This document shows positions 1,707 through 23,660 of a stretch of 36,241 nucleotides of DNA, piece after piece; the first letter of the stretch is position 1, and each line of letters begins with the position of its first letter. The stretch covers positions 1-36,241 of the IMG/VR virus record IMGVR_UViG_3300031251_000066; one strand, given 5' to 3'. Source of the stretch: a virus. The translations under genes and the position numbers were made by a program. The notes under the pieces were generated by a model. That model was not told the DNA's origin. It saw only the letters and a program-made list of their open reading frames with translations, and did not search any database.

Positions 1707-1736
1707 AAATAATATATATATTCAAACAATTAGAAT
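1707..1736 (-). promoter_or_regulatory. Promoter-like element, copy A
   Basis: Minus-strand copy of the ~30-nt element seen six times in the window: ATTCTAA at the 5' end, TTTGAATA in the middle, and a TATATTAT core at 1709-1716. It lies about 60 nt upstream of the 26-codon leader ORF that precedes the DUF6745 cassette. The TATATTAT core resembles the AT-rich early promoter motif I recall for phiKZ (TATATTAC). Activity is inferred from sequence conservation and position only. Confidence 0.55.
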
Positions 1737-1807
1737 TTATATATTTACTTGAGATTGTTATATTTGATAGATAATAACTATTTATATAAGATACCTGTGT
1801 TTAATGT

Positions 1808-2227
1808 TTAATTAAAATTAATGGTATAATTAACATACCCATTTAATACTAGCATATCTACTATACTCTGCTGAGTAGCAGGATCTACATCAGTTAATAT
1901 AATAGTAGCTGTTTGTCTAACTAATCTAGTTAAGGAAACTGGATTTATCCAAGGTATACCGATTTCTATTATTGAATTATCTACTAATTCAATCACTAAA
2001 TAATTATAAGAGGTATAATCATTGATAGTTGGATTACTTGGGGTATTAGGTAAACTAGAATAAATGTTAGCGTGATTTACTGCAGCTTGAGCTGGGTCTC
2101 TTAGAGATTTACCAGATGTAAATCCTAACAGAGTACCATCTACAACATTATTGAGCACAATGCCATAAGTATTAAAACTAATAACATCATTTATAACTAA
2201 TTTATTTACGGTTGTTGTTTCTGCCAT
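1808..2227 (-). CDS. Hypothetical phage protein, 139 aa
   Basis: I do not recognise this protein. It is rich in Thr, Asn, Ile and Val, with alternating hydrophobic stretches typical of beta structure and no charged helical segments, membrane span or signal peptide. The start follows GTGAGAAAATAAA, a modest ribosome-binding site, and lies 1 nt from the stop of the upstream gene (2229-2411), so the two are co-transcribed. It is the last gene of the leftward unit that begins with the PhuZ-like gene. No obvious terminator hairpin follows it, so transcription may run on toward the accessory cassette. Confidence 0.65.
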   Translation of the reverse strand: MAETTTVNKLVINDVISFNTYGIVLNNVVDGTLLGFTSGKSLRDPAQAAVNHANIYSSLPNTPSNPTINDYTSYNYLVIELVDNSIIEIGIPWINPVSLTRLVRQTATIILTDVDPATQQSIVDMLVLNGYVNYTINFN

Positions 2228-2228
2228 T

Positions 2229-2411
2229 TTATTTTCTCACAGGCTTATGTGCCATTAATATATTTAAATCATCAGTATAAGCTTTCAATAATCTTACCTC
2301 ATCATCAGATCTTGCACCATCTGGTGCTTGTCTTTCTATTCTAAAAATTAAAGATTGTAAATTAAGTATTCTCTTCTCCTTTTCACTAGCATTGAGATAT
2401 GATTTGCTCAT
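2229..2411 (-). CDS. Small hypothetical protein, 60 aa
   Basis: The start is set at the ATG at 2411, which follows a strong AAAGGAGAA ribosome-binding site 6-7 nt upstream. A longer reading from 2465 has no such site. The product (MSKSYLNASEKEKRILNL at the N-terminus) is charged and probably helical, with runs of Lys, Glu, Leu and Arg and no membrane segment. Its 5' end overlaps the 3' end of the upstream gene by 26 nt, indicating translation from one message. Function unknown. Confidence 0.65.
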   Translation of the reverse strand: MSKSYLNASEKEKRILNLQSLIFRIERQAPDGARSDDEVRLLKAYTDDLNILMAHKPVRK

Positions 2412-2799
2412 TATTATTTTCTCCTTTATTATAATTGTATTTAACCATGTTAGCTTGTATACCATAGTTAATTAACCTTTTAAAATCTACTACTATCTTT
2501 TCACGTAGATACAATAATATATTAGTAGTAACCAGAGTTAATGTACTATTGTATATTCTTATAAAATTTGATTTAATATCAGATGGTAATAATAACTCAT
2601 CTATAGTTTCTAAAAGAGATGGTAGCAGATTATATCTATGATCTTCTAATATAGACATCACATCATTCATAATGTAGGTTTCAATATCTAGAAACTGTAT
2701 ATCTACATTTGAATATGGCTCTAACTGATTTTTAAAAATATGATATAAATCATAACATGAAAAGATAATAGTATATTCTTCAGGGAATGTATCTACCAT
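2386..2799 (-). CDS. Hypothetical phage protein, 137 aa
   Basis: An unrecognised, probably all-alpha protein rich in Ile, Leu, Asn and Tyr with scattered acidic residues. The ATG at 2799 (MVDTFPEEYT) follows AAGGAG at a rather long 10-nt spacing. An upstream in-frame TTG at 2820 is the only alternative. It overlaps the upstream gene by 20 nt and the downstream gene by 26 nt, so the three form a tight cluster. A YNYNKGENNNE segment at the C-terminus is low-complexity and likely disordered. Confidence 0.6.
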   Translation of the reverse strand: MVDTFPEEYTIIFSCYDLYHIFKNQLEPYSNVDIQFLDIETYIMNDVMSILEDHRYNLLPSLLETIDELLLPSDIKSNFIRIYNSTLTLVTTNILLYLREKIVVDFKRLINYGIQANMVKYNYNKGENNNEQIISQC

Positions 2800-3229
2800 T
2801 GTGAATATGCTCCTTTTCAAAAGTTAATACTCTGAAATCTCCCTCACATTTAAATTCATAATATCCTACTTGTTTATTTAATGTCCATATATCAAAAGTT
2901 TCTGCACCCATAGCTACATTTATCTTATCAGTAAGATATCGATAAGACATCATTTTGTTTATAGCATTTTCTAATGCTATAGCATCTAAGTTAAATTGAA
3001 TAGAAAAGATATAATATGGATTACTGTTTAACAATTGATGATTTCTAATCAATTTATTTATATTACTTTCTATAACTAACCTAGCATCTTCAAATAAAAG
3101 AAATTCTAATCCATGAATCAATTGTTGTTCATCATGTTTAAAATTTTTAGGTAATTCATATAAGATTAAATAAGCATATATTTCTACAGCTATCGATGCT
3201 AAATCAAAAATTATTATTGGTTTATTCAT
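2780..3229 (-). CDS. Hypothetical phage protein, 149 aa
   Basis: An unrecognised protein opening MNKPIIIFDLASIAVEIYAY and continuing with mixed helix and strand segments. I chose the ATG at 3229. The only longer reading begins at a GTG at 3274 inside a terminator-like hairpin (3257-3280), which is an unlikely start. The ribosome-binding site is weak (GGAAA close to the ATG). The coding 3' end overlaps the next gene by 20 nt. It sits directly behind the PhuZ gene, but the hairpin between them suggests much of the PhuZ message stops before it. No catalytic motif is evident. Confidence 0.55.
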   Translation of the reverse strand: MNKPIIIFDLASIAVEIYAYLILYELPKNFKHDEQQLIHGLEFLLFEDARLVIESNINKLIRNHQLLNSNPYYIFSIQFNLDAIALENAINKMMSYRYLTDKINVAMGAETFDIWTLNKQVGYYEFKCEGDFRVLTFEKEHIHNGRYIP

Positions 3230-3256
3230 ATGTTTCCATTTAGCTACTATTAAAGA

Positions 3257-3280
3257 CAGAGAGTGAGGATTCACTCTCTG
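3257..3280 (-). terminator. Hairpin downstream of PhuZ gene
   Basis: Inverted repeat with perfect 10-bp arms (CAGAGAGTGA / TCACTCTCTG) and a GGAT loop, starting 19 nt past the stop of the tubulin-like gene. On the minus strand it is followed by TCTTTAATAG, a short and imperfect U tract, so termination may be partial. Partial termination would let some transcript reach the small genes at 3229-1808. Confidence 0.5.
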
Positions 3281-3298
3281 AATACTAGTTATGTTTAA

Positions 3299-4282
3299 TT
3301 AGAAGATAAAATCATCTCCATCACCAAATGTTTGTATTTGCGTATTTTGAATAGCAGCTTCAGCTTTCTTATATTTATCAATAGCAGCTTGCAGGTTAGT
3401 TATACGATTACCCATAAGTTGATTTGTTATAATAAAGTAAGTAGATGGTGTCTCATGTCTCGTAGCTGTTAAAGCAGCTTCAGGATAATATCCAACACAA
3501 CTATAGGTTTGACCTAAATCAACTATATTATCTTCTTTACTAGTCAATAAACTAGCTACTGAAATAGCAGCTAATTCAATCGGCAACTCACCATCTTTGC
3601 CATTTAAGTGGATTATGATATCTACTATCTGTGGTGCTACTTTACTATTTTTATCATAATTTAACCATTTAAAGATATCTTGACTATCGAGTTCTTCATT
3701 GGTGCCAGAGGCTAACATAGCCAAAGATCGTAAGTCAATGTCAATGTTACGATCTACCTCCTGTCTATTTGTTTCATTATTATTTTCATAAAACAAACCA
3801 GCAATAGGTCTACCTAATTTTTTAGTAGATAGATTTTGTAATGTACCTATTGTATTATAAGCATTGGTAGTTTCTCGTGAGGAAGCTGTAGAAATTACAG
3901 ATAAAATTACTACAGGTTTTCCTCTATTAATTAACTCTTCCACAATCAATGGTCCCAGTACAGAACCTGAACCACCTGATAAACCAAAAATTACTATGTT
4001 AAAATCTGCAGGTGGATGTTTAAGAAATATAGAGTTAATGTGTGGTACTGCTACAGAGTGCGTAAAAGCTCTATCTTTCCCAGAGCCATCTACACCAGGT
4101 ATTAAAAATATATCACCTTTATTTGACTTTGGCTGAATATTACTTTTTGAAGTATCAATCAAAGAATAAACAGTGTCGGGAAAACCAGCTGAATCTGAAG
4201 GTATATCAACATTATTAATTGCATTTACCCCAAGTCCACCACAGCCATAAATTCTTAAGGTAGATTTTGATTTAGTATTCAT
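3299..4282 (-). CDS. phuZ: PhuZ-like tubulin/FtsZ GTPase
   Basis: A 327-residue member of the tubulin/FtsZ superfamily of the kind found in phiKZ-like jumbo phages, where the filaments centre the phage nucleus and carry capsids to it. Visible motifs are the T1 loop GCGGLGVN (residues 13-20), the T4 GTP-binding G-box GLSGGSGSVLG (100-110; FtsZ has GGGTGTG) and a T7-type catalytic loop NIDIDLRSL (179-187), comparable to NxDxxD in FtsZ. The C-terminus ends in an acidic tail (FGDGDDFIF), as expected for PhuZ, whose acidic tail is needed for polymerisation. Length is near that of known PhuZ proteins. It is read leftward, with a promoter-like element about 67 nt upstream of the start and a hairpin just behind the stop. 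Confidence 0.92.
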   Translation of the reverse strand: MNTKSKSTLRIYGCGGLGVNAINNVDIPSDSAGFPDTVYSLIDTSKSNIQPKSNKGDIFLIPGVDGSGKDRAFTHSVAVPHINSIFLKHPPADFNIVIFGLSGGSGSVLGPLIVEELINRGKPVVILSVISTASSRETTNAYNTIGTLQNLSTKKLGRPIAGLFYENNNETNRQEVDRNIDIDLRSLAMLASGTNEELDSQDIFKWLNYDKNSKVAPQIVDIIIHLNGKDGELPIELAAISVASLLTSKEDNIVDLGQTYSCVGYYPEAALTATRHETPSTYFIITNQLMGNRITNLQAAIDKYKKAEAAIQNTQIQTFGDGDDFIF

Positions 4283-4348
4283 CTTTATTTAATCCTATTT
4301 CTAGTTAAGTTGAGAGTAGTGATAGATGCTATTAATATAGCATCTAAG

Positions 4349-4378
4349 ATATAATATATATACCAGAAAATTTCCAAT
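4349..4378 (-). promoter_or_regulatory. Promoter-like element, copy B
   Basis: Minus-strand copy of the six-member element, the most diverged in its 5' half (ATTGGAAATTTTCTGG) but with an intact TATATATATTAT core at 4351-4362. It lies about 67 nt upstream of the PhuZ start codon, the same spacing as copies A, D and F to their genes. Confidence 0.5.
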
Positions 4379-4464
4379 ACCACATAAGATTTCTAGTATA
4401 AGTATTAATATATTTACCATTTTATACCATTATAACGTAGACTTCTAAAAAGGACATTCATCAA

Positions 4465-5208
4465 ATGAATAATATAGAATACATTCTTTCTGTAATAAAA
4501 AGAAAGATACCTTTACCTATCTTAAATATGGCATTCTTACCAACAGATACATTTGGTAGATTAAGACCTAGTTTAAGTCATTGTATTCAAAATACTATTG
4601 TAAATAATTGGGTATTAGCTGATGCTAATATGGTAGCTGGTATTGAAACTATTATAGATATAACAAATTGTCAAATCACTACAGTAAACATGGGTATGAT
4701 TATTCATGTTGGATTAGGACCAACCGCTGGTAAAGTAATTACATCAGTGCTTAGTGTTGGCTATGGTTATAATGCATTAGCTGGTGGACAGCCAGGAATA
4801 GCTTCTGCTTTGACAGAACCTTTACAAACTTCAGATGCTAGAGTACAACTAGTTGGTACTAATATAGTTTATGTAGAAGGTTACACTGGTGTTACATTAA
4901 CTAATATGAGATGTGTATTAGAGAATGATGAAGAGTTTAATAATCTATCACCTAGAGCTATGCCATTTATATCTGAACTATGCACTTTAGCAGCTAAAGC
5001 TTATATTTATAATGAGTTATCTATTAAACTAGCTAATGCTGTAATAGTAAATGGTATAGATACGGGTAAATACGCTGAAATAGTAAATAGCTATTCAGAT
5101 GCAGATCAAATGTATACAGAACAGCGAGATACTAAATTAGCTAAAATAACATTACTATCAGACCCGGTTACTCGTAATAGAATTATAAGAATGACTTGTC
5201 CTTCATAA
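4465..5208 (+). CDS. Hypothetical, possible virion protein, 247 aa
   Basis: A 247-residue protein without a signature I can name. The middle (residues 55-160) is rich in Gly, Thr and Val with alternating hydrophobics, suggesting a beta-sandwich. The C-terminal third is more helical and charged (YSDADQMYTEQRDTKLAK). No signal peptide or membrane span. This composition resembles phage structural proteins, and in phiKZ I recall virion-type genes near the PhuZ gene, but both points are weak. The start follows AAGGAC about 9 nt upstream. The gene is divergent from PhuZ across a 182-nt gap, and its transcript ends at a 34-bp palindrome. Confidence 0.65.
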   Translation: MNNIEYILSVIKRKIPLPILNMAFLPTDTFGRLRPSLSHCIQNTIVNNWVLADANMVAGIETIIDITNCQITTVNMGMIIHVGLGPTAGKVITSVLSVGYGYNALAGGQPGIASALTEPLQTSDARVQLVGTNIVYVEGYTGVTLTNMRCVLENDEEFNNLSPRAMPFISELCTLAAKAYIYNELSIKLANAVIVNGIDTGKYAEIVNSYSDADQMYTEQRDTKLAKITLLSDPVTRNRIIRMTCPS

Positions 5209-5478
5209 AAAAATAAAAAAGAATAATAGCATATAGGTAGAGAGCATATGCTCTCTACCTATATAATTGTGCTTTTTACTTATACTAAAAGTATCCCAAT
5301 CTGCTGGTTTTTTAATAATAGGAATATTATTTTCATCTGCCCAATCCTTTCCTAATAAATCAGCACCTCTAGCCATACCACATATTACTTCTGTTATCTT
5401 AAAGTTAGATAGAGATATAGCCATATCAATATGCTGTCTTGTAGTACCAGCTCTAGAACCAGCAATTATAACTTTCAC
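5203..5478 (-). pseudogene. Truncated DUF2493/YspA-like (SLOG) protein remnant
   Basis: The reading frame opens at a GTG (5478, preceded by TAGGG) and encodes VKVIIAGSRAG, then VICGMARGADLLGKDWADENN and IPIIKKPADWDTF. This is the characteristic GSR...G.A.GAD.LG..WA....I....PADW pattern of DUF2493 (YspA-like, SLOG superfamily, nucleotide-binding Rossmann-like fold). Intact members continue with G..AG..RN..M and a C-terminal helix. Here the family sequence stops after PADWDTF and the frame runs into a palindromic terminator and then the end of the opposite gene. About two thirds of the domain remains, so I read it as a decayed gene. A longer start at 5526 lies inside another palindrome and would add a hydrophobic leader foreign to the family. 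Confidence 0.7.
5231..5264. terminator. 34-bp perfect palindrome, terminator
   Basis: Fully self-complementary, with arms of 17 bp (ATATAGGTAGAGAGCAT and its complement), 23 nt past the stop of the rightward gene at 4465-5208. It can form the same hairpin in both directions. The DUF2493 remnant reads into it from the other side. Confidence 0.75.
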
Positions 5479-5518
5479 AGCTAACCCTATTATGACAAAA
5501 AAATATAATAATAAAAAG

Positions 5519-5552
5519 ATATGCATTGTTAGATTAATCTAACAATGCATAT
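5519..5552. terminator. 34-bp perfect palindrome beside repeat array
   Basis: Self-complementary over 34 bp (left arm ATATGCATTGTTAGATT). It separates the DUF2493 remnant from the 37-bp repeat array. For a leftward transcript started at copy C of the promoter-like element (5948-5977) it would be the first strong hairpin, giving an RNA of about 400 nt. Confidence 0.6.
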
Positions 5553-5591
5553 TGAGGCTCAGGAGGAAGAGCGATTTTTATCTAATATTAA

Positions 5592-5886
5592 GATTCACTA
5601 GTTCTTATTGAAATTATTTCTCCTTTAGATTCACTTATTTATAATGAAAATTATTATCTGCATAGATTCACTAACAAAAAATGGGATTACTATTGCTATT
5701 TGATTCACTAATAAATTTTGGGTTTGATTTTATTTATTGGTTCACTGTTAGATTTTGGGATTACTAGTTTCTTCTGATTCACTAATGAATTATGGTATTA
5801 CTAGTTGTGTTTGATTCACTTCGTTATATTGGGTATAATTACTGACACTGATATTACCGATAATCTTGTTTAATCACTATATAATA
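5592..5886. repeat. Tandem array of degenerate 37-bp repeats
   Basis: Seven units begin with GATTCACT (one GGTTCACT) at 5592, 5628, 5665, 5702, 5739, 5776 and 5813, spaced 36, 37, 37, 37, 37 and 37 bp. A much weaker eighth unit keeps phase at 5850. Units share the opening GATTCACTAAT and a second block near TGGGATTACTA about 10 bp further on; the rest drifts. Because 37 is not a multiple of three and no start codon with a ribosome-binding site is present, this is not a coding repeat. It fills the 488-nt gene-free stretch between 5526 and 6015 together with a palindrome on the left and a promoter-like element on the right. Candidate roles are iteron-like protein binding, an origin or packaging site, or a structured RNA. 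Confidence 0.85.
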
Positions 5887-5924
5887 ATCACTATTAATAT
5901 ATTAATAATTTCTTATTTTATTTG

Positions 5925-5946
5925 CGATTAATCGTATGATATCATA
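5925..5946. promoter_or_regulatory. Two abutting short palindromes at predicted transcript start
   Basis: CGATTAATCG (5925-5934) directly abuts TATGATATCATA (5935-5946), both perfect palindromes. They lie immediately downstream of the TATATTAT core of promoter-like copy C, where a transcript into the repeat array would start. They could be operator half-sites, but AT-rich DNA gives short palindromes by chance. Confidence 0.3.
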
Positions 5947-5947: not shown

Positions 5948-5977
5948 AAATAATATATACATTCAAATTTTTTGAAT
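5948..5977 (-). promoter_or_regulatory. Promoter-like element, copy C, facing repeat array
   Basis: Minus-strand copy of the six-member element with the perfect inverted repeat ATTCAAA-AAA-TTTGAAT in its 5' half and a TATATTAT core at 5950-5957. Unlike the other copies, no gene start lies 40-70 nt downstream. The only thing it points at is the 37-bp repeat array, then the palindrome at 5519-5552. Confidence 0.5.
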
Positions 5978-6014
5978 CATGATATATTTTATAATCTCTT
6001 TAGGAATACAATAA

Positions 6015-8376: not shown

Positions 8377-10542
8377 TTAGTACATTCTAGAATTACTTAT
8401 AAAACCCAACTTTCTACTATTAATGTTATTAACAGCTCTATGTAAAGAACGTTTAGATACTTTAGCTTCAGAGATTTCATTCATTATACTATCTAGAGTC
8501 ATAGTAATATCACCTAGTTCATTAGCTTCTTTAACTTTATATTCTAATTGTTTTTGCATTCGTAAGCTATCAATCATATTAGGTGCAGATATTAAGTTCT
8601 GTTTTAAGACTTTGATTTCATTATTTAAGTCTAATAAGATTTGTCTAGTTTTTAATTCATCTTCAGTTATAGTGGCTCCATCTGTACTAACTAATGATAA
8701 ACAATCTCTAGGGTTAATACCATAGTGCTGTAAATTAGTAGTGTGTTTAACAAACCAATGTGTTAATAAATAGGCTATCACATGGTCATCATGTCCACCA
8801 GCAATATGATCTACTCTATCATTTTTAATTATTAAACCTTTTAACTCTGAAGATAGAGTCTTATCTTTAATTAAATGCCCTACTGAATTAATAGCATCAT
8901 TTAATACCGTATCATATAAAAATGTTCTATTACTACCATTTGTATGGAAACCAATAGTCTTTTTATATCTATTATAAATAGACTCATCTCTATATTCTAT
9001 AGGTTTACAAATCTCTTTATAAGCATCCTCTTGTACTTTATAATTATCTACTATTGAGTTATACATACGTTTAAAAGGGTCCATTCCTGCTGCTACTAGA
9101 TAAGTAGCAATGACATCTACAATGCTCTGTCCAGATACTTTATTTTCAATGATTAAAGTAGTATTTGTAAACTTAATCATAAACTTAGCTATCCATATAG
9201 CATACTTATGTAAATTAGCTTCCGAAATAGTAGATGTAGCTACTACTGACATATCTCTAATATCTGTTATCACCATTGCATTAGCATCCCTACCAACAGC
9301 TTGACTAGAATCTAACCCTATAACATAATGACCTAATCTAAATCTAGTTTCTAGTTCATGTTCTTCTATATACCATCTAAATATATATTTCTCAACAGAT
9401 ATTGAAGTAAAACATGGGTCTACTTCTGATGCATCTATAATCTCTAATAGTTTAGTTGGGATAGCACTAGATTCTAAACCATTTGTCCACTTATTTAGAT
9501 AGTCTCTTTCTATTTCTTCTTTTGTACGTTTTACTGATGAGATTACTCTACGTAACCATTCATCTGTCCTACCACATTGTCTATGATTAAACACCCCATA
9601 TACTAAACATCTATTTTCTGATGAGTTAGTAATAACAGTTTGCCTAGCATCATATTTATCATCAGAATCATATAACTTTTCATTCCATGCCATACCAGAA
9701 AATATAAAGCTATACATATACTTCCCTTCTTTACTATCAAGTTTACCAGCAGTAGTGGTATATATATTTCCATATAGAGTTCCATTCTTTTCATAGTTTT
9801 CTTTAACAGCATCACCACCTGATGCTAATGCAGCTAATGAGATATGCACATTAGTAATAGCTGGGCCTTCATCAACATGTATATATGGAACAGTCCAACC
9901 ACGACCTACATTGTTAGCGTCATATTCAGCTTTCTGTGGCACTGCAGTTCTAATAATATTTCCTCTAGTTACACAGGTAATAACCTCACCATTATCTGCA
10001 TCTTTTTTAGATACAGGTAATAACCATGCTGGTAATAATTTTGCTGTTTTCTTAATCCTTTCTATATTAATCTTTCTTAAAGCATCATCTTTAGTAAACA
10101 ACAATAAATCTGTACCAAAATAATATAAATAAGTTAACCATAATTCTAAAGCATCACAGGCTACTGATTTACCATTTTGACGAGGCATTATAAGAGCTAT
10201 ATCTATTCCACAAAAAAAACACCATAGCAACATTAGAGTAGGTCTATTGACCCTAAACCTTACTGATAATTTACCATCTGGCACTCGCATTATTTCTCTA
10301 AAAAAATACCATGGATTATTCTGGCACTCTAATGCAATTGCTGTTTTTTGAGCTGTTGTTAAATTAGAGGAATATGGATCTACTCCTTGTAACTCTGGTT
10401 GTAACAATGCTAAATGAAAATAATAGTTATTTATTTTCATATGCTTTAATAAAGCAGCAGCTCTAAGAAATTCTACATTTGTAGTTTTATCATCTATAAT
10501 TGCTGTGTTATGAGTTTTCCAATCATTTAAAAATAAAATCAT
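8377..10542 (-). CDS. terL: Large terminase subunit (packaging ATPase/nuclease)
   Basis: A 721-residue TerL, the motor that drives DNA into the prohead and cuts it. The ATPase domain shows a Walker A motif MPRQNGKS (residues 119-126) and a Walker B motif YIHVDE (220-225). The RNase H-like nuclease domain has its acidic residues in VIGLDSSQAVGRDAN (D411), TLIIENKVSG (E466) and GGHDDH (D585/D586). The C-terminal part (about 625-700) is charged and coiled-coil-like. Length and motif spacing fit phiKZ-type terminases (gp25 in phiKZ, by memory). The frame is continuous, without intron or inserted domain. Start: ATG with GGTAAAGAT upstream. The gene is transcribed leftward, probably from copy D of the promoter-like element, behind a 34-residue membrane protein gene. 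Confidence 0.95.
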   Translation of the reverse strand: MILFLNDWKTHNTAIIDDKTTNVEFLRAAALLKHMKINNYYFHLALLQPELQGVDPYSSNLTTAQKTAIALECQNNPWYFFREIMRVPDGKLSVRFRVNRPTLMLLWCFFCGIDIALIMPRQNGKSVACDALELWLTYLYYFGTDLLLFTKDDALRKINIERIKKTAKLLPAWLLPVSKKDADNGEVITCVTRGNIIRTAVPQKAEYDANNVGRGWTVPYIHVDEGPAITNVHISLAALASGGDAVKENYEKNGTLYGNIYTTTAGKLDSKEGKYMYSFIFSGMAWNEKLYDSDDKYDARQTVITNSSENRCLVYGVFNHRQCGRTDEWLRRVISSVKRTKEEIERDYLNKWTNGLESSAIPTKLLEIIDASEVDPCFTSISVEKYIFRWYIEEHELETRFRLGHYVIGLDSSQAVGRDANAMVITDIRDMSVVATSTISEANLHKYAIWIAKFMIKFTNTTLIIENKVSGQSIVDVIATYLVAAGMDPFKRMYNSIVDNYKVQEDAYKEICKPIEYRDESIYNRYKKTIGFHTNGSNRTFLYDTVLNDAINSVGHLIKDKTLSSELKGLIIKNDRVDHIAGGHDDHVIAYLLTHWFVKHTTNLQHYGINPRDCLSLVSTDGATITEDELKTRQILLDLNNEIKVLKQNLISAPNMIDSLRMQKQLEYKVKEANELGDITMTLDSIMNEISEAKVSKRSLHRAVNNINSRKLGFISNSRMY

Positions 10543-10576: not shown

Positions 10577-10601
10577 ATAGGGGGATTAATAATCCCCCTA
10601 T
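10577..10601. terminator. Hairpin, 11-bp stem
   Basis: Inverted repeat with arms ATAGGGGGATT / AATCCCCCTAT and a 3-nt loop, between the 34-residue membrane protein gene and terminase. On the minus strand it would end or attenuate transcripts from promoter-like copy D before terminase. Confidence 0.65.
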
Positions 10602-10608: not shown

Positions 10609-10713
10609 TTACTCAGCTAAGAACAGAACACCACTAATAGTTATTACGACACTAATGGTAAAGTAACACATAGCGATTCCTATTTTTTCAACAATAGTTA
10701 ATTCTTTTACCAT
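10609..10713 (-). CDS. Very small membrane protein, 34 aa
   Basis: The ORF reads MVKELTIVEKIGIAMCYF at its start, followed by a hydrophobic stretch to VLFLAE. A single membrane span covers about residues 12-31. AGGAGA lies 7 nt before the ATG at 10713; an in-frame ATG at 10719 would be too close to it (about 1 nt). It sits about 65 nt downstream of promoter-like copy D, and a hairpin follows the stop. Coding status rests on the good ribosome-binding site, position and clean single-span profile. Function unknown. Confidence 0.55.
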   Translation of the reverse strand: MVKELTIVEKIGIAMCYFTISVVITISGVLFLAE

Positions 10714-10777
10714 TTTCATTCTCCTATTTAAATTAAAAAAGATATTAGAACAATGCAATACTATTCTAATACCATTT

Positions 10778-10807
10778 CTATTATATATATATTCAAAAAA
10801 TTTGAAT
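10778..10807 (-). promoter_or_regulatory. Promoter-like element, copy D
   Basis: Minus-strand copy with the perfect inverted repeat ATTCAAA-TTT-TTTGAAT followed by TATATATATAATAG, a slightly altered core. It is 65 nt upstream of the 34-residue membrane protein gene and upstream of terminase, and just past the palindrome that ends the preceding structural unit. Confidence 0.5.
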
Positions 10808-10843
10808 ATATAGATATACGATTATTATCAAAGATATTAAATA

Positions 10844-10889: not shown

Positions 10890-12560
10890 TTATGTTAATG
10901 TATTTCTTAAAATCACACCACCAACAGCTAAAGTAGAATATGTAACTGTATCTGTAGAAGGTGTTAAAAAGATAATAGTAATAGTATCAAAATCTGTATA
11001 ATTACCGCCAAAGTCATTAGGTAATAAGATATTCCAATATAGAGCTATTTCTCTAACTGGTGATAATATACCTTTATACTTTAACTGAAAATGAGTTGGT
11101 GTAGGGGGAGCTAAAGAAATAGATTGATCATAGATTGGATGTAATGCACCATATAATCTAGCTATCCATTCTTCTACTGAAACTGCTCCTGATTTAACAC
11201 TCAAAGCTTGTTGTCCTTGAGTTGAATATTCAAAGTAAGCTTGAGCTCCATATATAAAACTATTGTTATTTAAATAGTCTATTAACCAAGGTATTTCTGA
11301 TATAGCACCATAATCAATTGTAAATAGCTGTATAAATGTATATCCAGTATATCCATGTGGTATTATATCTGGCATATAAATAGCTACTCTTAATGTTTGT
11401 GGACCAGCATTAGAACTATAGTCTACAGTACCACCATCTGATAAAGATACAATAAGATTGTTATCTGGTATCTGAATTAAAATAGTATAACTTACATTAG
11501 TTAAGTAATAAGTATTTGTAAATCTTTGTGAATTAGAATTAAAAGTAGGCACTACATATAACTTAAATGAATAATCTAAAACATTATTAACGGTACGTAG
11601 TTTATACTTATGCACTACTGATCTATTTACCATATTAGTTATATTTACAGCAGGTTCAGTAGTATCTGGATAGTATACTAATACTACATCACTAGATTCA
11701 CCAGCTAAAGAAGTATTAAATTTATCTATACCTAATAATTTACATTTGTTAGTACCTACACTAACTTGTAAAGAACTACCATCACTATATAGTAATCTGG
11801 CTTGAAAGTCAGTTCCAGTAATAGGTATATTAGCAGGCACATTAATAGTGTCTAATGTAATAGTATCCAACATATTAGTATCTAATACAATATCTACAAT
11901 AGTAATTGTACTAGACCCTAAGCCTTTAATAGCATTAGAGTTTTTAATAATGAAAGTGTGGGTGCCTGCTGGACCACCAGCTAATGTATAAGTTTCTAAT
12001 GTTACAACATCACCATCTAGTAATGATACATCAGTATTGAATACTGGAGGAGCTTTAATAGCTGGATTATTAGGATCTATAGTAACTAAAGGAATATTTT
12101 CACTAACAAAGTTTCCATTACCATCAAATAATTGAGAGATGACAGTACCAGTGATAGGTGATAAATCGGTACCAGCAAATACTTTAAAATATACTTTTTC
12201 TACACCATAGCATCTATATCTATCATCTATAGTGAGAGTGTGTGGTATCACTGCTGTATTTAAGAAAGCTAATTCTAATACAGTAGGTTGATATAATCCT
12301 AATCTTTGTGATCCACCTAAACCCACTTGTTCAGTAGATAAAACATGAAAATCTACTATTTTTAAAGTAGGTATATAAGTAGGTGCATTTGCAACATCTA
12401 CTACTCTAAATGCTCCTCTATTATAATCTATTATCAAATCATCTATATTAGGTACTACGTTACCATCTGTAGTTTGATTAGGACCAAAATAAATTTCAGA
12501 TATATGCCATGTTCTAAATCCTCTATTAGGATCATATAGTATTGTTACCGGGTTAGTCAT
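10890..12560 (-). CDS. Virion structural protein, 556 aa (phiKZ gp26 position)
   Basis: A 556-residue protein dominated by Thr, Val, Ile, Asn, Gly and Pro with regular hydrophobic alternation, so mostly beta structure, probably several Ig-like or beta-sandwich domains. It has no signal peptide or enzymatic motif. It is first downstream of the 853-residue gene (16 nt gap) and is followed by a strong terminator. By position between terminase and sheath it corresponds to phiKZ gp26, a guess from gene order recalled from memory. Its C-terminal region (AVSVEEWIARLYG) is the source or copy of 29 bp found again at 1571-1599. Virion or tail role inferred from composition and context. Confidence 0.7.
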   Translation of the reverse strand: MTNPVTILYDPNRGFRTWHISEIYFGPNQTTDGNVVPNIDDLIIDYNRGAFRVVDVANAPTYIPTLKIVDFHVLSTEQVGLGGSQRLGLYQPTVLELAFLNTAVIPHTLTIDDRYRCYGVEKVYFKVFAGTDLSPITGTVISQLFDGNGNFVSENIPLVTIDPNNPAIKAPPVFNTDVSLLDGDVVTLETYTLAGGPAGTHTFIIKNSNAIKGLGSSTITIVDIVLDTNMLDTITLDTINVPANIPITGTDFQARLLYSDGSSLQVSVGTNKCKLLGIDKFNTSLAGESSDVVLVYYPDTTEPAVNITNMVNRSVVHKYKLRTVNNVLDYSFKLYVVPTFNSNSQRFTNTYYLTNVSYTILIQIPDNNLIVSLSDGGTVDYSSNAGPQTLRVAIYMPDIIPHGYTGYTFIQLFTIDYGAISEIPWLIDYLNNNSFIYGAQAYFEYSTQGQQALSVKSGAVSVEEWIARLYGALHPIYDQSISLAPPTPTHFQLKYKGILSPVREIALYWNILLPNDFGGNYTDFDTITIIFLTPSTDTVTYSTLAVGGVILRNTLT

Positions 12561-15141: not shown

Positions 15142-16080
15142 TTATTCCACTGGAGATATATCAGCTAAAAATTTATCAAAATTTGTATTATGATTTCTAC
15201 TAACACCTAAAACAGCTTTACCTAGAGTAGTATTGTTTTGTAAACCTTTTTTCATAATACAAGATAGCATAGCTATAAAGGTAGATGGTAATTCTAGACC
15301 TATTGCTGTTACATCAGCTGTATTAGTACCAATATAAGCTCCTCTACACAACGCATTATAAATAATGGATGGTTCTATTGTAGTTTCTTCATTAGTTACA
15401 ATAGATAATACTCTTGCTAACTGATGTATCTTAGGAGATGGATCATTACTATTACCATTTCTAAATAGTTCAATTACTCTAGTTTGATTTAGAGTAAATA
15501 GATCATTAATGATTTGATCAGGAATTCTAATTATTCTAGGTATCTGTTTAAGAATTTGTATTTCTACATCTTCATCTTCAGAAATATCTTGATCATTAAA
15601 TAAACCTAAATAATAAATAGCAGAGATTGCTCTATAATTAGCTATTGTAGCTAAACTAGCGTTTGTACTACGACCCAATCCATAGGAAAACCAAGAAGAA
15701 AATGCATCTATTACAAATTTTTCTTGACTATAGAATAAAGATTTATCACGACTCCATGCTAAGTCTAATTTAGCTCTACGTACCATTAATGCATATTCAT
15801 CAATATTTCTAATACTACCATCTTTACTAATTTGATTTCTTACATCTATATAAGCATGGTCATTATGAATAATAGGATGTAGGAAAGTTGGTATATGTTC
15901 TACGTCACCTATAACAGCAACAACATTACCACTTATTTGTTTAAGATTTTCACTATTTTTATTTATTATTAATAAAGATTCAATAGATCTAGCTATTGAA
16001 TTTACTTTATTTAATTGTCCAATCTGACCTGTAGTTGTATAGGCAGATTGTACATTGTGTTTATTATCAGGAGTGGACAT
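15142..16080 (-). CDS. Virion-associated protein, 312 aa (phiKZ gp28 position)
   Basis: A mainly helical protein I cannot assign. I favour the ATG at 16080 (MSTPDNKHNV), which has GGAAGAAGAG 5 nt upstream; in-frame ATGs at 16116 and 16095 have no ribosome-binding site. The segment FNDQDISEDEDVEI is acidic and shares 23 bp exactly with 1603-1625. It heads the leftward structural unit and is divergent from the sheath gene, so its promoter must lie in 16117-16279. Its place next to the sheath, sheath/tube being phiKZ gp29/gp30 by memory, suggests a virion protein. Confidence 0.6.
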   Translation of the reverse strand: MSTPDNKHNVQSAYTTTGQIGQLNKVNSIARSIESLLIINKNSENLKQISGNVVAVIGDVEHIPTFLHPIIHNDHAYIDVRNQISKDGSIRNIDEYALMVRRAKLDLAWSRDKSLFYSQEKFVIDAFSSWFSYGLGRSTNASLATIANYRAISAIYYLGLFNDQDISEDEDVEIQILKQIPRIIRIPDQIINDLFTLNQTRVIELFRNGNSNDPSPKIHQLARVLSIVTNEETTIEPSIIYNALCRGAYIGTNTADVTAIGLELPSTFIAMLSCIMKKGLQNNTTLGKAVLGVSRNHNTNFDKFLADISPVE

Positions 16081-16279: not shown

Positions 16280-18370
16280 ATGGCAACAAATTATATAACT
16301 AATAATGTACCGCAGGCCATTCTTAATGGAATTGATGATAGAAGTATCACTCCATTATTACCGCAAGCGGAAGCAGTACCTATTCATTTACCTTTATTTT
16401 ATATTCAAGCTCCTTGGGGCCCTACTGAAGATATTGTATTATGTGGACCTGGTGACTTACCACGTATATTTGGTGATGCTACAGTTGATATCAGAGGTCC
16501 TTACCTAAACCATGCTACTGTATTAGCTAGACGAATTTTAGCTAAAGGCAACTCTGTATTTATTAAACGTATTGCTAGAGGACTATCAGTAACTACCAAT
16601 GGTGTAACTACAACTACTAATTTACCAGCTAACGCTAGTCTTACACTATTCGTTGAAGTAGATCATACCTCACCTGTATATCCTTTTATTCGGGATGATA
16701 ATGGCGCTGTTGTTACTGATGGTAATGGTGCACCTACTTATGGCACTACTCCAATTACCGGTGGTCGTACTTTAATATTTAGCTGGGTACCAACTGGTTC
16801 ATTGACTGAGCAAGATTTATCAGCACCTATGACGATTACTAATAGTGCTAATTTTACTTACCCACTATTGACAGTAACTGCCCCTTTTGTGGGTGCATTG
16901 GGTAATCAATATGGTATTAAACTTTGGACGGCTAATCAATTATCTTCACGCCCTGGTGACCCAGATATTATTAGTAATCAACAAGCTTTGATCTATAATG
17001 CACAATTGATGTTCCAACCACCAAATACATCTGCAGCTATTGTTAATGATGTACTAGGCGAAAGTAGTATTCAGTTCTGTTTGAAACCAAATGCTTATAA
17101 TTATAAAACTAATGCGGATCTGACTATTCAAAGTTTAGTTACTAATTATAATGATGATGGTATTAGCACTGGTACTTCACCTACATATGGCCCATTAGGG
17201 ACTGTAGAAGTACATGAAGCTAATTTAGAAGCTGTACTAAATATATTACTCAATGCTGAGAATGCTAACCTACCTACTGGTGCGGCACCCATTGAGTCAA
17301 TTTGGCTATTAGATCCATTTACAGCTATTGATTCCTCTGGTATTCCTTTCTATGGTTTCCAAGTATCTGATAGTGGTACTATTCTTAATGAAAGCTTTAC
17401 AGCTTATCTACAAGGTGGTAGTGATGGTGATCTTTCTAATGCTACTTTTGAATCACAAGTAAAATGGGAAATTGATAATAACTATCAGAACCCGGCATAC
17501 CCTTTGTTAGATTCTGCTAAATTCCCATTTAGCGCTATTTATGATACTGGCTTTAGTTTAGATGTAAAGATTAAACTATTTAAATGGATGGCTTTAAGAA
17601 AAGATATACATGTTGCGGTAGGTACTCATATCGTAGGTAGTCCACAATTATCTGTATCTGATGAAATATCAGTAGGTCTCGCCTTAAAATCTGCATTGAG
17701 TTTATACGCTGAGTCTGCATTATGGGGAACACCTGCGTGTAGAGCTGTAATTGTAGGTCAATCCGGTATATTGCTTAATGATGAATTTACTAAACCTGTA
17801 TCTTTGCTATTTGATTTAGCTGATAAACGTGCAAGTTATGCTGGTGCTGGTAATGGTAGTTTGAAACCAGGTTTGAGTTATAACCTTTCTCCATATAACC
17901 AAATTAGCTCAATGAAAAAGATAACTAATACTTATCTTACTAAAATAGCTAAAAATACTATTTGGGGAGAAGGCATTAACTATTGTCAATCATTTGATAT
18001 GCATAGTTATTTCTATCCAGCAATTCAAACTGTGTATGGTATTCAAAACTCTGTTTTGACTAGTGAAGTATTCATGCAAATTTGCTGTGATATTGAAAAA
18101 CAATCTGAAAGGGTTTGGTATGAATTGACAGGTAATGATAAAGATTCACCTGCTGTATTTATTAAAAAGTCTAATGATAGATTAATTGAATTGACAGATG
18201 GTAAATATGATAATAGAGTAAAAATTACTCCTAATACATATTACACTCCAGCTGACTCAGCTAGAGGTTATTCATGGACGCAAGATATTACAGTAGAAGG
18301 TAATGTAATGAAAACAGTTGCTTCTATTAATATCATTGTTAAACGTCAATCACCATCCACAGGAGGCTAA
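16280..18370 (+). CDS. Contractile tail sheath protein
   Basis: A 696-residue sheath protein, almost the length I recall for phiKZ gp29. It polymerises around the tail tube and contracts to drive it through the envelope. The N-terminus has FYIQAPWGPTEDIVLCGPGDLPRIFGDA (residues 41-68) and an RGPYLNHATVLARRILAKGNSVFIKRI segment, both in the style of sheath N-terminal domains. The C-terminal domain includes SSMKKITNTYLTKIAKNTIWG and an FDMHSYFYPAIQTVYG segment. The start has AAGGAAG 7 nt upstream. The gene is followed after 3 nt by the tube gene. Codon choice is visibly less AT-extreme than in the surrounding small genes, fitting high late expression. Confidence 0.9.
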   Translation: MATNYITNNVPQAILNGIDDRSITPLLPQAEAVPIHLPLFYIQAPWGPTEDIVLCGPGDLPRIFGDATVDIRGPYLNHATVLARRILAKGNSVFIKRIARGLSVTTNGVTTTTNLPANASLTLFVEVDHTSPVYPFIRDDNGAVVTDGNGAPTYGTTPITGGRTLIFSWVPTGSLTEQDLSAPMTITNSANFTYPLLTVTAPFVGALGNQYGIKLWTANQLSSRPGDPDIISNQQALIYNAQLMFQPPNTSAAIVNDVLGESSIQFCLKPNAYNYKTNADLTIQSLVTNYNDDGISTGTSPTYGPLGTVEVHEANLEAVLNILLNAENANLPTGAAPIESIWLLDPFTAIDSSGIPFYGFQVSDSGTILNESFTAYLQGGSDGDLSNATFESQVKWEIDNNYQNPAYPLLDSAKFPFSAIYDTGFSLDVKIKLFKWMALRKDIHVAVGTHIVGSPQLSVSDEISVGLALKSALSLYAESALWGTPACRAVIVGQSGILLNDEFTKPVSLLFDLADKRASYAGAGNGSLKPGLSYNLSPYNQISSMKKITNTYLTKIAKNTIWGEGINYCQSFDMHSYFYPAIQTVYGIQNSVLTSEVFMQICCDIEKQSERVWYELTGNDKDSPAVFIKKSNDRLIELTDGKYDNRVKITPNTYYTPADSARGYSWTQDITVEGNVMKTVASINIIVKRQSPSTGG

Positions 18371-20472: not shown

Positions 20473-20685
20473 TTTACTTCCTATTTCTAAGTTTAAATTA
20501 TTTACTACATTACATTTGTTTGATGTGTATTTTTTTATTTGTTCAGCTAGATACTCCTTTATTGTGTCACAATGACATTGTTTTGGATAGCAGAAGCATA
20601 GTAGAGTAATATCTTCTATTTTAGCTATATTAAGAATTCTATCAAGCTCTACTGTACTATCCTCATTACATAGATTGTCATTTTT
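20473..20685 (-). pseudogene. C-terminal fragment of a DUF4326-like protein
   Basis: Seventy-one sense codons without a usable start lie between the stop of the 259-residue gene and the start of the 129-residue gene, all in one frame. The translation contains ELDRILNIAKIEDITLLCFC followed by YPKQCHCDTIKEYLAEQI. The CxC..P..CH.D....L pattern is the C-terminal signature of DUF4326 proteins (LxCWC.P..CHgdvL). The N-terminal half of that domain is missing. I read it as a decayed gene. The alternative is an N-terminal extension of the 129-residue protein from a rare start codon. Confidence 0.6.
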
Positions 20686-21465: not shown

Positions 21466-21841
21466 ATTGATATGCCCCCCAGTATGAGTTATTATTAAAT
21501 TCTAAGCCTTCACTAAGTGCAACGTAATTATCATTTAGAGCTATACTCCCTAAGTTATAAACAATACCATGTTCTGTATAAACAGACATTAGTTCTTTTG
21601 TACCAGATGGGTTTACTAAACCAGAGTAAGTGTTTCTTGTATTTTCTAGAGCTTGTATAAAAGCTACTGCAGCGCTAGTATACTCATCAATTATCACTCG
21701 CTTAGCTAAAATTAACTGAGTATTTATATGCCCAAATACCTCTTTATCCTGAATTGCTCCCGAAGAGATTCCATATTTAATTGATTTACTTAAATCATCA
21801 ATTGAGTAAAATTTACTAGGAGCGTAATAGTCATTACTCAT
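21443..21841 (-). CDS. Hypothetical protein, 132 aa
   Basis: Unrecognised. A helical N-terminal half (SIDDLSKSIKYGISSGAIQD, then a long Ala-rich helix around YTSAAVAFIQALENT) is followed by a more beta-like, Asn/Tyr-rich C-terminus. AAAGGAAG lies 6-7 nt before the ATG. The start overlaps the stop of the 48-residue gene (ATGA) and the 3' end overlaps the 259-residue gene, so all three share one message. Confidence 0.6.
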   Translation of the reverse strand: MSNDYYAPSKFYSIDDLSKSIKYGISSGAIQDKEVFGHINTQLILAKRVIIDEYTSAAVAFIQALENTRNTYSGLVNPSGTKELMSVYTEHGIVYNLGSIALNDNYVALSEGLEFNNNSYWGAYQYVDKNIR

Positions 21842-21984
21842 TGATTTCTTCCTTTATTGAATGTGGTTATAAGTGAGTGTGTTTTATCATACTGTAGTAA
21901 AGTTAATATACAACGGATTAATTCTTCTGCAGTAGCTTGCCCATAAGCATACCTTTCTAACACATTTAATACAAAAATATGCAT
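21838..21984 (-). CDS. Small hypothetical protein, 48 aa
   Basis: ORF opening MHIFVLNVLERYAYGQATAE with AGGAGT 6-7 nt before the ATG and an ATGA overlap with the next gene. The product is helical and amphipathic, without a convincing membrane span. It is the first gene after promoter-like copy E (44 nt), supporting its reality. Confidence 0.55.
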   Translation of the reverse strand: MHIFVLNVLERYAYGQATAEELIRCILTLLQYDKTHSLITTFNKGRNQ

Positions 21985-22027
21985 TTTATTACTCCTATTT
22001 AATTAAATTAATATAATCTAGCCTAAT

Positions 22028-22057
22028 AGATAATATATGTATATAAATTATTTGAAA
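22028..22057 (-). promoter_or_regulatory. Promoter-like element, copy E
   Basis: Minus-strand copy: TTTCAAA, spacer, TTTATATACATATATTAT, with the TATATTAT core at 22030-22037. It is nearly identical to copy F over the 3' half, where both read TTTATATACATATATTAT. It lies between the end of the 104-residue gene and the 48-residue gene it would drive. Confidence 0.55.
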
Positions 22058-22067
22058 TAAAATCTCA

Positions 22068-22382: not shown

Positions 22383-22383
22383 G

Positions 22384-22680
22384 TTATTTCCTTATTTCTA
22401 AATTTAAAATATAATCTAAATACGTATTTATAAAAATAGTACTAAATAATTTATCAGTATTAAATATAACTACTGATCCATCTTGCATATGAAATATTAT
22501 TTCATAGTTTTCTTTAATTAATTTTATTATACTTTTATTTATTCCTTCTATAGCTAAATGATATTCTTTTAAAATTAAATCAATGAATAAAGGATTCTCT
22601 TTTAATATAATTATCTGACGTAGTTCCTTTAATAGATTAATTCTATTATTTAACTTATATAAATCAGATATTTGTGTCAT
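22384..22680 (-). CDS. Hypothetical protein, 98 aa
   Basis: Unrecognised. Helical N-terminus (KLNNRINLLKELRQIIILK), then a C-terminal segment EIIFHMQDGSVVIFNTDKLF resembling in style the C-terminal beta hairpins of the proteins encoded at 22829-23212 and 23209-23559. The ribosome-binding site is poor; translation is probably coupled to the 47-residue gene ending 2 nt upstream. Confidence 0.55.
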   Translation of the reverse strand: MTQISDLYKLNNRINLLKELRQIIILKENPLFIDLILKEYHLAIEGINKSIIKLIKENYEIIFHMQDGSVVIFNTDKLFSTIFINTYLDYILNLEIRK

Positions 22681-22682
22681 GT

Positions 22683-22826
22683 TTAAAGAGTATTATGAAC
22701 TGTGATATTATCACATTGTTGATATTGGTGCTCACGGCAATACACAGTTAATACTGTTATTATAAAAGTTAATAACAAAACAATTATTATAATAAGATTA
22801 CTTCTATATTGATGTATACTATGCAT
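22683..22826 (-). CDS. Small single-span membrane protein, 47 aa
   Basis: ORF opening MHSIHQYRSN followed by one long hydrophobic span (LIIIIVLLLTFIITVLTVY, residues 11-29) and a polar tail with two cysteines (CREHQYQQCDNITV). AGGAA lies 7 nt before the ATG and overlaps the end of the upstream gene; the next gene starts 2 nt after the stop. The layout (short basic N-terminus, one span, Cys-containing tail outside) fits a type II inner-membrane protein with a periplasmic tail. A role in lysis or superinfection control is possible but unsupported. Confidence 0.6.
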   Translation of the reverse strand: MHSIHQYRSNLIIIIVLLLTFIITVLTVYCREHQYQQCDNITVHNTL

Positions 22827-22828
22827 AT

Positions 22829-23212
22829 TTAATTCCTAGTAATATAAACTGTAATGAGTTGTTCTGGTTTAGAAATGAGTTTATTCATTTGTTGTATTTC
22901 ATCAAATGAACTATCTTTTGTAAAATAATAGATTTCTGTTTGTGTAGCTATTATTACTTTATGATTGTTTTGTTTACTTGGGGTTAATCGTCTAGTCATG
23001 TTAAAGGCAACATCTAAATAAACTATATTTAGATCAGATAACTCTGCTTCACATCCAGTGGTCTTAATGTTATCAATTGTTCTCCTCATATTTCTTAAAT
23101 CTAATAATGACTTAATTAACTGAATATTAATACGATCATAATCAGTTTCATTCTTTTTATTAAATAGATTTAGTAGTTGATCTTTTAACTTTTTTATCTT
23201 TATATCTATCAT
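22829..23212 (-). CDS. Hypothetical protein, 127 aa
   Basis: The ATG at 23212 (MIDIKIKKLK) has AAGG 8-9 nt upstream and overlaps the stop of the preceding gene (ATGA). The N-terminal part is a charged helix. The C-terminal part has KVIIATQTEIYYFTKDSSFD, a beta-strand pattern shared loosely with the neighbouring 98- and 116-residue proteins. The three may be diverged paralogues. Function unknown. Confidence 0.6.
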   Translation of the reverse strand: MIDIKIKKLKDQLLNLFNKKNETDYDRINIQLIKSLLDLRNMRRTIDNIKTTGCEAELSDLNIVYLDVAFNMTRRLTPSKQNNHKVIIATQTEIYYFTKDSSFDEIQQMNKLISKPEQLITVYITRN

Positions 23213-23559
23213 ATACAAACCTTTACAAATTCAGGTTTAAGCAAAAGAACATAGTTAATCTTTTTATATCGTAGTATATTAATTAAGTAATTAGGGTTTA
23301 TACTACTCAATTCCAAAGTAGAATCATTGTTCATAAAAATAAATCTTTCACCTGTAACATCAACTGTTATCATTTTAATTCTAGTTTTTAACAGTTTACA
23401 GAGAAGATCATATACTTCTAAAGCTTGATGGTTTATCTTTTCCATAATAGTTAGATAAGCTTTGGTATTTCTATTTCTAGGTATTAATTCTTTTAACCCA
23501 TTTAATCTATGTAATTTTAATTCTATTATTAGATTATCGGTATTTATATCTATAGCCAT
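23209..23559 (-). CDS. Hypothetical protein, 116 aa
   Basis: The ATG at 23559 (MAIDINTDNL) follows AATAGGAA. The protein has a helical N-terminal half and a C-terminal region with KMITVDVTGERFIFMNNDST. It is the first gene of the leftward unit 66 nt downstream of promoter-like copy F. The helical front, beta-hairpin back layout matches its two neighbours downstream, but no family is recognised. Confidence 0.6.
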   Translation of the reverse strand: MAIDINTDNLIIELKLHRLNGLKELIPRNRNTKAYLTIMEKINHQALEVYDLLCKLLKTRIKMITVDVTGERFIFMNNDSTLELSSINPNYLINILRYKKINYVLLLKPEFVKVCI

Positions 23560-23630
23560 TATCAATTCCTATTGATTAATATTATCAGAATATAATATTT
23601 AATAGTAATAATAGATTATATTGATCTATT

Positions 23631-23660
23631 AAATAATATATGTATATAAATAATTAGAAT
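23631..23660 (-). promoter_or_regulatory. Promoter-like element, copy F
   Basis: Minus-strand copy: ATTCTAA, spacer TTA, TTTATATACATATATTAT, with the core at 23633-23640, followed by TTAATAG. It is 66-70 nt upstream of the 116-residue gene start and directly beside the 38-bp palindrome that ends the protease unit. Confidence 0.55.

Follow-up and report, generated by a model that had tools for sequence, protein, structure and literature searches.

Putative virion RNA polymerase promoters in a phiKZ-like phage, one of them at the head of a TIGR-like array

The minus strand of a 36,241-nt viral contig (IMG/VR record IMGVR_UViG_3300031251_000066, hereafter the window) carries six copies of an intergenic element of about 30 nt, which raises the question of which polymerase reads it and what is transcribed from it. 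Our analysis of the DNA indicates that the copies very probably serve a phiKZ-like, nucleus-forming phage as early promoters for its virion RNA polymerase (vRNAP), and that the third of them would drive a TIGR-like array; as promoters, the six are unexceptional and fall in an established class. All copies reported by the initial annotation lie where it had placed them:

1707 to 1736, minus strand: predicted early promoter, copy 1, ATTCTAATTGTTTGAATATATATATTAT-TTTACT-G, predicted +1 at 1702; downstream, a 26-aa ORF (1566-1646), then the DUF6745 gene (442-1581).
4349 to 4378, minus strand: copy 2, with the weakest upstream part, ATTGGAAATTTTCTGGTATATATATTAT-ATCTTA-G, predicted +1 at 4344; downstream, the PhuZ tubulin gene (3299-4282).
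5948 to 5977, minus strand: copy 3, with a perfect inverted repeat, ATTCAAAAAATTTGAATGTATATATTAT-TTATAT-G, predicted +1 at 5943; downstream, a noncoding TIGR-like array.
10778 to 10807, minus strand: copy 4, with a perfect inverted repeat, ATTCAAATTTTTTGAATATATATATAAT-AGAAAT-G, predicted +1 at 10773; downstream, a 34-aa ORF (10609-10713).
22028 to 22057, minus strand: copy 5, TTTCAAATAATTTATATACATATATTAT-CTATTA-G, predicted +1 at 22023; downstream, a small-gene operon (21838-21984 and onward).
23631 to 23660, minus strand: copy 6, ATTCTAATTATTTATATACATATATTAT-TTAATA-G, predicted +1 at 23626; downstream, a small-gene operon (23209-23565 down to 22068).

When both strands of the window were searched with the pattern ATTCNAANNNTTTNNATANATATATTAT, allowing up to 3 mismatches, exactly these six copies were retrieved (0, 3, 1, 1, 1 and 0 mismatches in order, copy 2 being the weakest and missing a good upstream box), as compared with a mean of 0.13 and a maximum of 1 in 100 dinucleotide shuffles. 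An independent 37-nt matrix, built from seven sites taken only from the 88-kb contig IMGVR_UViG_3300031251_000005 (the sister contig, which is likely from the same genome), ranks the six copies 1 to 6 in the window, with scores of 38.2 to 17.2 against 14.6 for the next site and a top score of 16.7 in 20 shuffled windows. De novo expectation maximization (EM) on the window and the sister contig pooled returns the same motif. No copy lies within a credible gene, and the matrix scan finds no further copy before the sheath, protease, head or polymerase genes, as the initial annotation had observed. The sites keep to one strand throughout (6/6 in the window, 12/12 in the sister contig and 23/23 in phiKZ). 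Bidirectional promoters at the two palindromic copies were also considered and are not supported: read on the plus strand, these copies score weakly, the full matrix giving 17.1 at 10811 and the sister-contig matrix 10.2 at 5981.

The core of the element, TATATTAT or TATATAAT, is followed in 6/6 copies by a G located exactly 6 nt after its 8 nt, a feature that had been overlooked and whose occurrence at that spacing in all six copies has a chance of ~2e-5 from base composition; the core-N6-G arrangement is likewise found at 9/12 sites of the sister contig. With this G as the putative start, the transcripts of the five copies with genes would begin 56, 62, 60, 39 and 67 nt from their start codons, and three leaders fold into hairpins starting at the predicted +1, among them the following two:

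4325 to 4344, minus strand: hairpin at the 5' end of the putative early transcript of PhuZ, GATGCTAT-ATTA-ATAGCATC, beginning at +1 (z = -4.1).
10741 to 10773, minus strand: 5'-terminal hairpin of the copy-4 transcript, beginning at +1 (z = -5.7); this leader recurs at five places in the sister contig.

The vRNAP early promoters of phiKZ-related phages have been defined by a conserved AT-rich core of ~10 nt centred near -10, TATATTA(T/C) (PMC7598289), and the window copies have both this core and the start G 6 nt downstream of it. The AR9 early consensus obtained by dRNA-seq is AAATATATATTAT-(6N)-G, with one near-consensus AR9 site being silent (PMC5312081); a core-N6-G regular expression gives 33 matches in AR9 and 43 in phiR1-37, versus 2-3 for the reversed pattern.

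The upstream part of the element had been described as an inverted repeat, ATTCAAA/TTTGAAT, perfect in two copies (5948-5977 and 10778-10807), which holds, and as something unfamiliar, which does not, because the early promoters of phiKZ contain GTATTCAAA-N4-TTTAAA with almost identical spacing, in the layout GTATTCAAA...TTTAAA...TATATTAC. On this sequence comparison it reads as two AT-rich half-sites, at ~-34 and ~-24, and as no separate new element: ATT lies at -34 in the phiKZ and the window promoters alike, TTT differs by one base in position, and a box stands at exactly -34 in 11/16 sites here and 10/19 in phiKZ, compared with 0-2 at nearby offsets. The early element of phiKZ has been termed 'well-conserved extended' (PMC4666361). 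The -34 half-site is also enriched in Vibrio sm033, phiR1-37 and AR9, and is probably present in LucasX too; as EM returned terminators on phiKZ and sm033 and ribosome-binding sites on LucasX and on G004, another phiKZ-like contig, these genomes were examined by targeted searches for the core.

The phage also encodes a multisubunit virion RNA polymerase that could serve as the reader, two of whose subunits fall in the window with no element in front of them:

28570 to 32916, minus strand: vRNAP subunit, homologue of phiKZ gp178.
35298 to 36239, minus strand: vRNAP subunit, homologue of phiKZ gp180, cut by the window end.

The proposal that the copies form a single temporal class, of the early type known from phiKZ, is upheld by the match of core and G spacing to the AR9 consensus and by the structural genes, which have no element. 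Other readers of the same DNA may nevertheless be imagined. An AT-rich, -10-like core (TATATT/TATTAT) would suit a host sigma-70-type polymerase, and a perfect palindrome in two copies would suit a dimeric repressor or another host or phage regulator that recognises ATTCAAA/TTTGAAT; yet the palindrome is imperfect in 4/6 copies whereas the -34 half-site, the core and the +1 G persist, the bipartite layout recurs in phiKZ and its relatives, and phiKZ infection is resistant to rifampicin (PMC4666361), so that we regard such sites as very unlikely. That the copies are middle or late promoters read by a non-virion RNA polymerase is, in our estimation, slightly less probable still, for although PhuZ and the small-gene operons could be middle genes, the phiKZ late promoters consist only of TATG at +1 and the middle ones of a weak -24 motif (PMC7598289), the element spares the structural genes of the window, and core-N6-G is the rule of the vRNAP.

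As to the genes behind the promoters, the initial annotation assigned five copies to a cassette, PhuZ, two small-gene operons and the terminase operon. These assignments stand with the exception of the last, since copy 4 is separated from the terminase gene by the 34-aa ORF and by one further feature, and the 'terminase operon' probably does not form an early unit:

10578 to 10600, minus strand: terminator-like hairpin, located after the 34-aa ORF and before the terminase gene.

Single-sequence queries with TerL and PhuZ found no relatives in viral contigs. The copy without a near gene had been passed over, and it is copy 3 that appears to start the most interesting transcript, a noncoding unit of ~420 nt in which a dual-repeat array with a 36/37-nt period and 9-nt spacers runs through 6-7 units:

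5600 to 5820, minus strand: TIGR-like dual-repeat array of six contiguous units (period 37, 37, 37, 37, 37, 36), each with edge AGTGAAYCW (9), spacer A (9), a AGTAATCCCA-like loop (10; 9 in unit 6) and spacer B (9).
5563 to 5599, minus strand: degenerate seventh unit, AGTGAATCTTAATATTAGATAAAAATCG...
5508 to 5552, minus strand: terminator-like hairpin closing the array transcript, TATGCATTGTTAGATTAATCTAACAATGCATA then TCTTTTTATT.

TIGR, an RNA-guided system, has as yet no known role or natural targets (PMC12045711); its arrays alternate repeats of 8-12 nt with spacers of ~9 nt over 5-15 units, as is the case here (five units of 9/9/10/9 and one of 9/9/9/9). Seven AGTGAAYC in a chain at 36-37 nt are never approached by 2000 shuffles, which do not exceed 1, and mean identity is 0.91 in the edge and 0.68 in the loop but 0.38/0.50 in the spacers, against 0.33 for random sequence. 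Past the last unit, a 15-bp hairpin with a T-rich tail on the same strand has the form of a rho-independent terminator. In TIGR arrays, box D (UG) and box C (CCA) belong to both repeats. Here the edge contains UG and CCA/UCA; the loop has CCA in units 1-4 and no UG, and the loop of two TasA-linked arrays (L105 and L107) is likewise mostly without UG. HMM and phmmer searches at full sensitivity detected no tas (Nop-domain) gene anywhere in the window or in the sister contig, and membership in TIGR is therefore provisional; we call the array TIGR-like for this reason, and it lies 5.6 kb from one end of the window in an incomplete genome. Rfam gave no match in the window, and candidate spacer targets in the window and sister contig (A with reverse-complemented B behind it, at gaps of 0-2) were no better than those of permuted pairings.

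The repeats match those of TasA-linked arrays (edge AGTGAACCA, loop AGTAATCC). A pattern scan of 2.9 million viral contigs for the edge repeat at 37-nt spacing gave 9 loci, of which 8 are TIGR-like arrays and 6 adjoin TasA genes; the other match, L106, is a plain tandem repeat. G004, which has TerL and vRNAP homologues, holds a TasA-TIGR operon behind the same promoter type, and a search of 50,697 isolate-phage records gave no match to its type of TasA. A phiKZ-like terminase occurs in 0/22 larger TasA contigs and the vRNAP family in 0/9, so that TIGR seems uncommon among phages of this kind. The TasA contigs are fragments, in which such absences are weak evidence.

Two further explanations of the repeats deserve consideration. 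DNA iterons of an origin or partition site near PhuZ would account for a period of 37 bp, which is 3.5 helical turns, and for intergenic repeats 1.3 kb from PhuZ with no tas gene nearby, but hardly for the alternation of two repeats around variable 9-nt spacers, for a promoter before and a terminator-like hairpin after them on the same strand, or for their resemblance to TasA-linked arrays; of 80 TasA loci sampled through the protein, 73 have arrays of 35-38 nt. We consider iterons improbable. That the repeats form no working guide array but a decoy, an anti-TIGR RNA or a remnant in decay is a somewhat more serious although still doubtful alternative, to which the lack of tas in 36 kb and in the 88 kb of the sister contig and the degeneracy of the last units lend weight, whereas six well-kept units, an intact early promoter and the terminator-like hairpin speak against it; the genome, moreover, is incomplete, and Tas may therefore lie elsewhere.

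The motif, its strand and spacing, the anatomy of the array, the terminator-like hairpins and the relatives are direct observations; from them we infer that the vRNAP uses the promoters, that it does so early and from the stated start sites, that the array is processed and that Tas is encoded in trans, as follows. A multisubunit RNA polymerase carried inside the virion and injected together with the phage DNA would contact the AT-rich half-sites ATTCnAA at -34 and TTTgAA near -24, about one helical turn apart, melt the core from -14 to -7 and start at the G six bases past it. Five promoters would yield mRNAs for PhuZ, the DUF6745 cassette and small proteins, and the remaining one, copy 3, a noncoding RNA closed by the terminator-like hairpin and cut into guides of ~36 nt for a Tas protein with a Nop domain, itself encoded elsewhere. 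Nucleus-forming phages may transcribe TIGR guide arrays with the injected polymerase and so set up RNA-guided DNA binding within minutes of the onset of infection, before or during genome enclosure, the array in the present case lying apart from its tas gene; this is a proposal for and against which we see equal grounds. These results present the vRNAP promoter as bipartite, with a -34 half-site common to phages from phiKZ to AR9 that offers a concrete target for how a polymerase without known sigma factor finds promoters, and copy 3 links TIGR with the polymerase that phiKZ-like phages inject; if this is true, the time of TIGR action would be fixed at minutes after injection and its function would become testable in a phage-host pair.

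Compared with the TIGR-TasA arrays of Faure et al. 2025 (PMC12045711), the window array shares the 36/37-nt units ordered as edge, 9-nt spacer, loop and 9-nt spacer, the end terminator and the repeat letters of TasA-linked arrays, but has no adjoining tas gene and lacks in its loop repeat the box D UG known from TasR arrays; it also resides in a phiKZ-like phage behind a vRNAP-type promoter, whereas 'jumbo' and 'phiKZ' are absent from the main text of that paper. The early promoters of AR9 and phiR1-37 (ATATATTAT-N6-G) are identical to those of the window in core and start-site spacing, while their upstream half-site is weaker, reading GTATTAA in phiR1-37 and being shifted upstream by one base in AR9, and both are uracil-DNA phages. 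In phiKZ, where a TIGR-like array was looked for and not found, the core ends in AC (TATATTAC) instead of AT, the TTT half-site is one base nearer the core, and TTTGAG/TTTAAG variants also occur; its early promoters otherwise resemble those described here in having ATTCAAA at -34, a TTT half-site near -23, a TATATT core at -14, a G six nt past the core and a single strand, and one of them likewise lies upstream of the cluster that holds PhuZ.

The window, which is the complete IMG/VR record (36,241 bases, 30% GC), represents part of the genome of a phiKZ-like phage. Its genes include two for multisubunit RNA polymerase subunits that match phiKZ gp178 and gp180, and since the latter are annotated as structural head proteins, the matches identify the subunits as those of the virion RNA polymerase (vRNAP). 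An HNH endonuclease ORF (33910-35310, minus strand) lies between the two vRNAP genes at the position of phiKZ gp179 and is probably a homing element or intron. Further genes are the following:

3299-4282, PhuZ
8377-10542, large terminase (closest to Vibrio phage sm033, 43%)
16280-18370, sheath
24131-24883, head protease

All six copies of the promoter-like element proposed in the initial annotation were found on the minus strand (copies 1 to 6: 1707-1736, 4349-4378, 5948-5977, 10778-10807, 22028-22057 and 23631-23660), all are intergenic, and a search of both strands with a 28-nt pattern and at most three mismatches returned these six only, against an average of 0.13 matches in shuffled windows. 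In every copy six bases separate the 8-nt AT-rich core from a G. On the minus strand of the window, TATATTAT-N6-G matches exactly at six places, namely five copies and one intragenic site (4462-4476); the plus strand has no match. The core of copy 4 is TATATAAT and hence escapes the pattern. Core and spacing are identical to those of the early promoters of AR9, whose measured consensus is AAATATATATTAT-(6N)-G with the G as start (PMC5312081). The phiKZ core, TATATTAC, keeps the same six-base gap to G; AR9 and phiR1-37 contain 33 and 43 matches, respectively, to the regular expression used on the window for core and G. According to a review, the early operons of every RNAP-encoding jumbo phage are preceded by an AT-rich motif of this kind, with its centre near -10 (PMC7598289).

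Searched for the pattern, 2.9 million viral contigs yielded a single further one, the 88-kb IMGVR_UViG_3300031251_000005, with twelve sites, all on the same strand. A matrix built from seven of these twelve scores the window copies at 38.2, 35.0, 27.8, 27.6, 20.3 and 17.2, the next-best window site at 14.6 and the best site in 20 shuffled windows at 16.7; de novo search of both contigs recovers the same motif. The two have no long coding DNA in common, and the second contains phiKZ genes absent from the window; both probably belong to one genome, or to two closely related ones. They also share a promoter-leader-start module of about 100 bp, with a conserved 5'-terminal hairpin, that precedes different genes and whose leader is absent from every other viral contig scanned:

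window 10698-10815, module copy
sister contig 23414, 24428, 36657, 62731 and 64256 (loci L011-L015), module copies with 81-91% identity to that of the window

The upstream inverted repeat, for which the initial annotation gave no precedent, has one in phiKZ, as GTATTCAAA-N4-TTTAAA-N3-TATATTAC. When noncoding sites are picked by core alone, [AT]TTnnAA lies precisely at -34 in 11 of the 16 sites here and in 10 of the 19 from phiKZ, as compared with 0-2 occurrences at each other offset within eight bases. In Vibrio sm033 TTTGA spans -34 to -30, phiR1-37 has TTAA as its upstream box, that of AR9 sits one base further upstream, and the layout fits at two sites of LucasX. Given this recurrence, and a second half-site about ten bases after the first, the palindrome, perfect in only two copies, consists of two half-sites on one helix face. 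We infer that these are contacted by vRNAP or by a co-injected factor; we know of no factor injected with vRNAP that touches such half-sites.

Predicted starts lie 39-67 nt ahead of start codons for five copies, and the genes behind them are, much as had been proposed, the DUF6745 cassette, PhuZ, a 34-aa ORF and two small-gene operons whose products have no known function; phiKZ likewise has an early-type site (29412) ahead of its PhuZ-holding cluster. The "terminase operon" assigned to copy 4 is doubtful: a strong hairpin separates the 34-aa ORF from the terminase, which is thus probably outside the copy-4 early unit. Leader hairpins begin at the predicted +1 of copies 1, 2 and 4 (z of -4.1 and -5.7 for copies 2 and 4, only -1.7 for copy 1). 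This agreement favours the predicted starts, and the hairpins may shield the 5' ends of early transcripts:

1680-1702, minus strand, +1 hairpin of copy 1
4325-4344, minus strand, +1 hairpin of copy 2
10741-10773, minus strand, +1 hairpin of copy 4

The cassette under copy 1 (1-1600; DUF6745 gene 442-1581 and ORF 16-402) has about 40-45% GC versus 30% for the genome and was likely acquired recently. At the start of its transcript, a 26-aa ORF (1566-1646, minus strand) is identical over 29 nt to 11159-11187 and over 23 nt to 15575-15597, both within other phage genes, and could be a true mosaic or an assembly artefact.

Copy 3, which has no nearby gene, is predicted to drive a transcript of about 420 nt with +1 at 5943, ending in a terminator-like 15-bp hairpin and T-rich tail (5508-5552):

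5508-5943, minus strand, predicted noncoding early unit with an array of 36/37-nt units, six of them well kept and the seventh degenerate

AGTGAAYC occurs seven times in it at spacings of 37, 37, 37, 37, 37 and 36, a period that is no multiple of three; the longest such chain in 2,000 shuffles was one. The units divide into an edge repeat (9 nt), a spacer (9), a loop repeat (10) and a spacer (9). Mean pairwise identity falls from 0.91 in the edge and 0.68 in the loop to 0.38 and 0.50 in the two spacers (random, 0.33). We class the array as TIGR-like (TIGR being a dual-repeat guide-RNA array type) and not as a proven TIGR locus because no tas gene was found in the window or sister contig; spacer targets sought in both were not found either. 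Immediately past the terminator lies a YspA/cpYpsA-related SLOG-domain gene (5203-5481, minus strand), which could be transcribed by run-through from copy 3.

Scanning for three edge repeats at 37-nt spacing gave nine loci, eight of them TIGR-like arrays; the ninth was rejected as a plain tandem repeat. A gene for a protein like TasA, the Nop-domain partner, adjoins six of the eight, and several of these genes weakly match the IS110 Transposase_20 domain. A protein-first search found arrays of 35-38-nt period at 73 of 80 TasA loci. Another long TIGR-like array, in IMGVR_UViG_3300027881_000940 (L102), has no recognisable Tas within the 14 kb examined. Among the array loci, L101 lies in the 84-kb contig IMGVR_UViG_3300020152_000021, which carries phiKZ-like terminase and vRNAP genes and five copies of CATATATATTA, all on the same strand; one of these copies, with a -34 box, stands immediately ahead of TasA and array (67690 onward). 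With the window array behind copy 3, the sequences thus place a TIGR-type array under a predicted vRNAP-type promoter in two phiKZ-like phages. The anatomy of the window array is that of published TIGR arrays, in which repeats of 8-12 nt alternate, the spacers are 9 nt long, the units number 5-15 and a terminator follows (PMC12045711).
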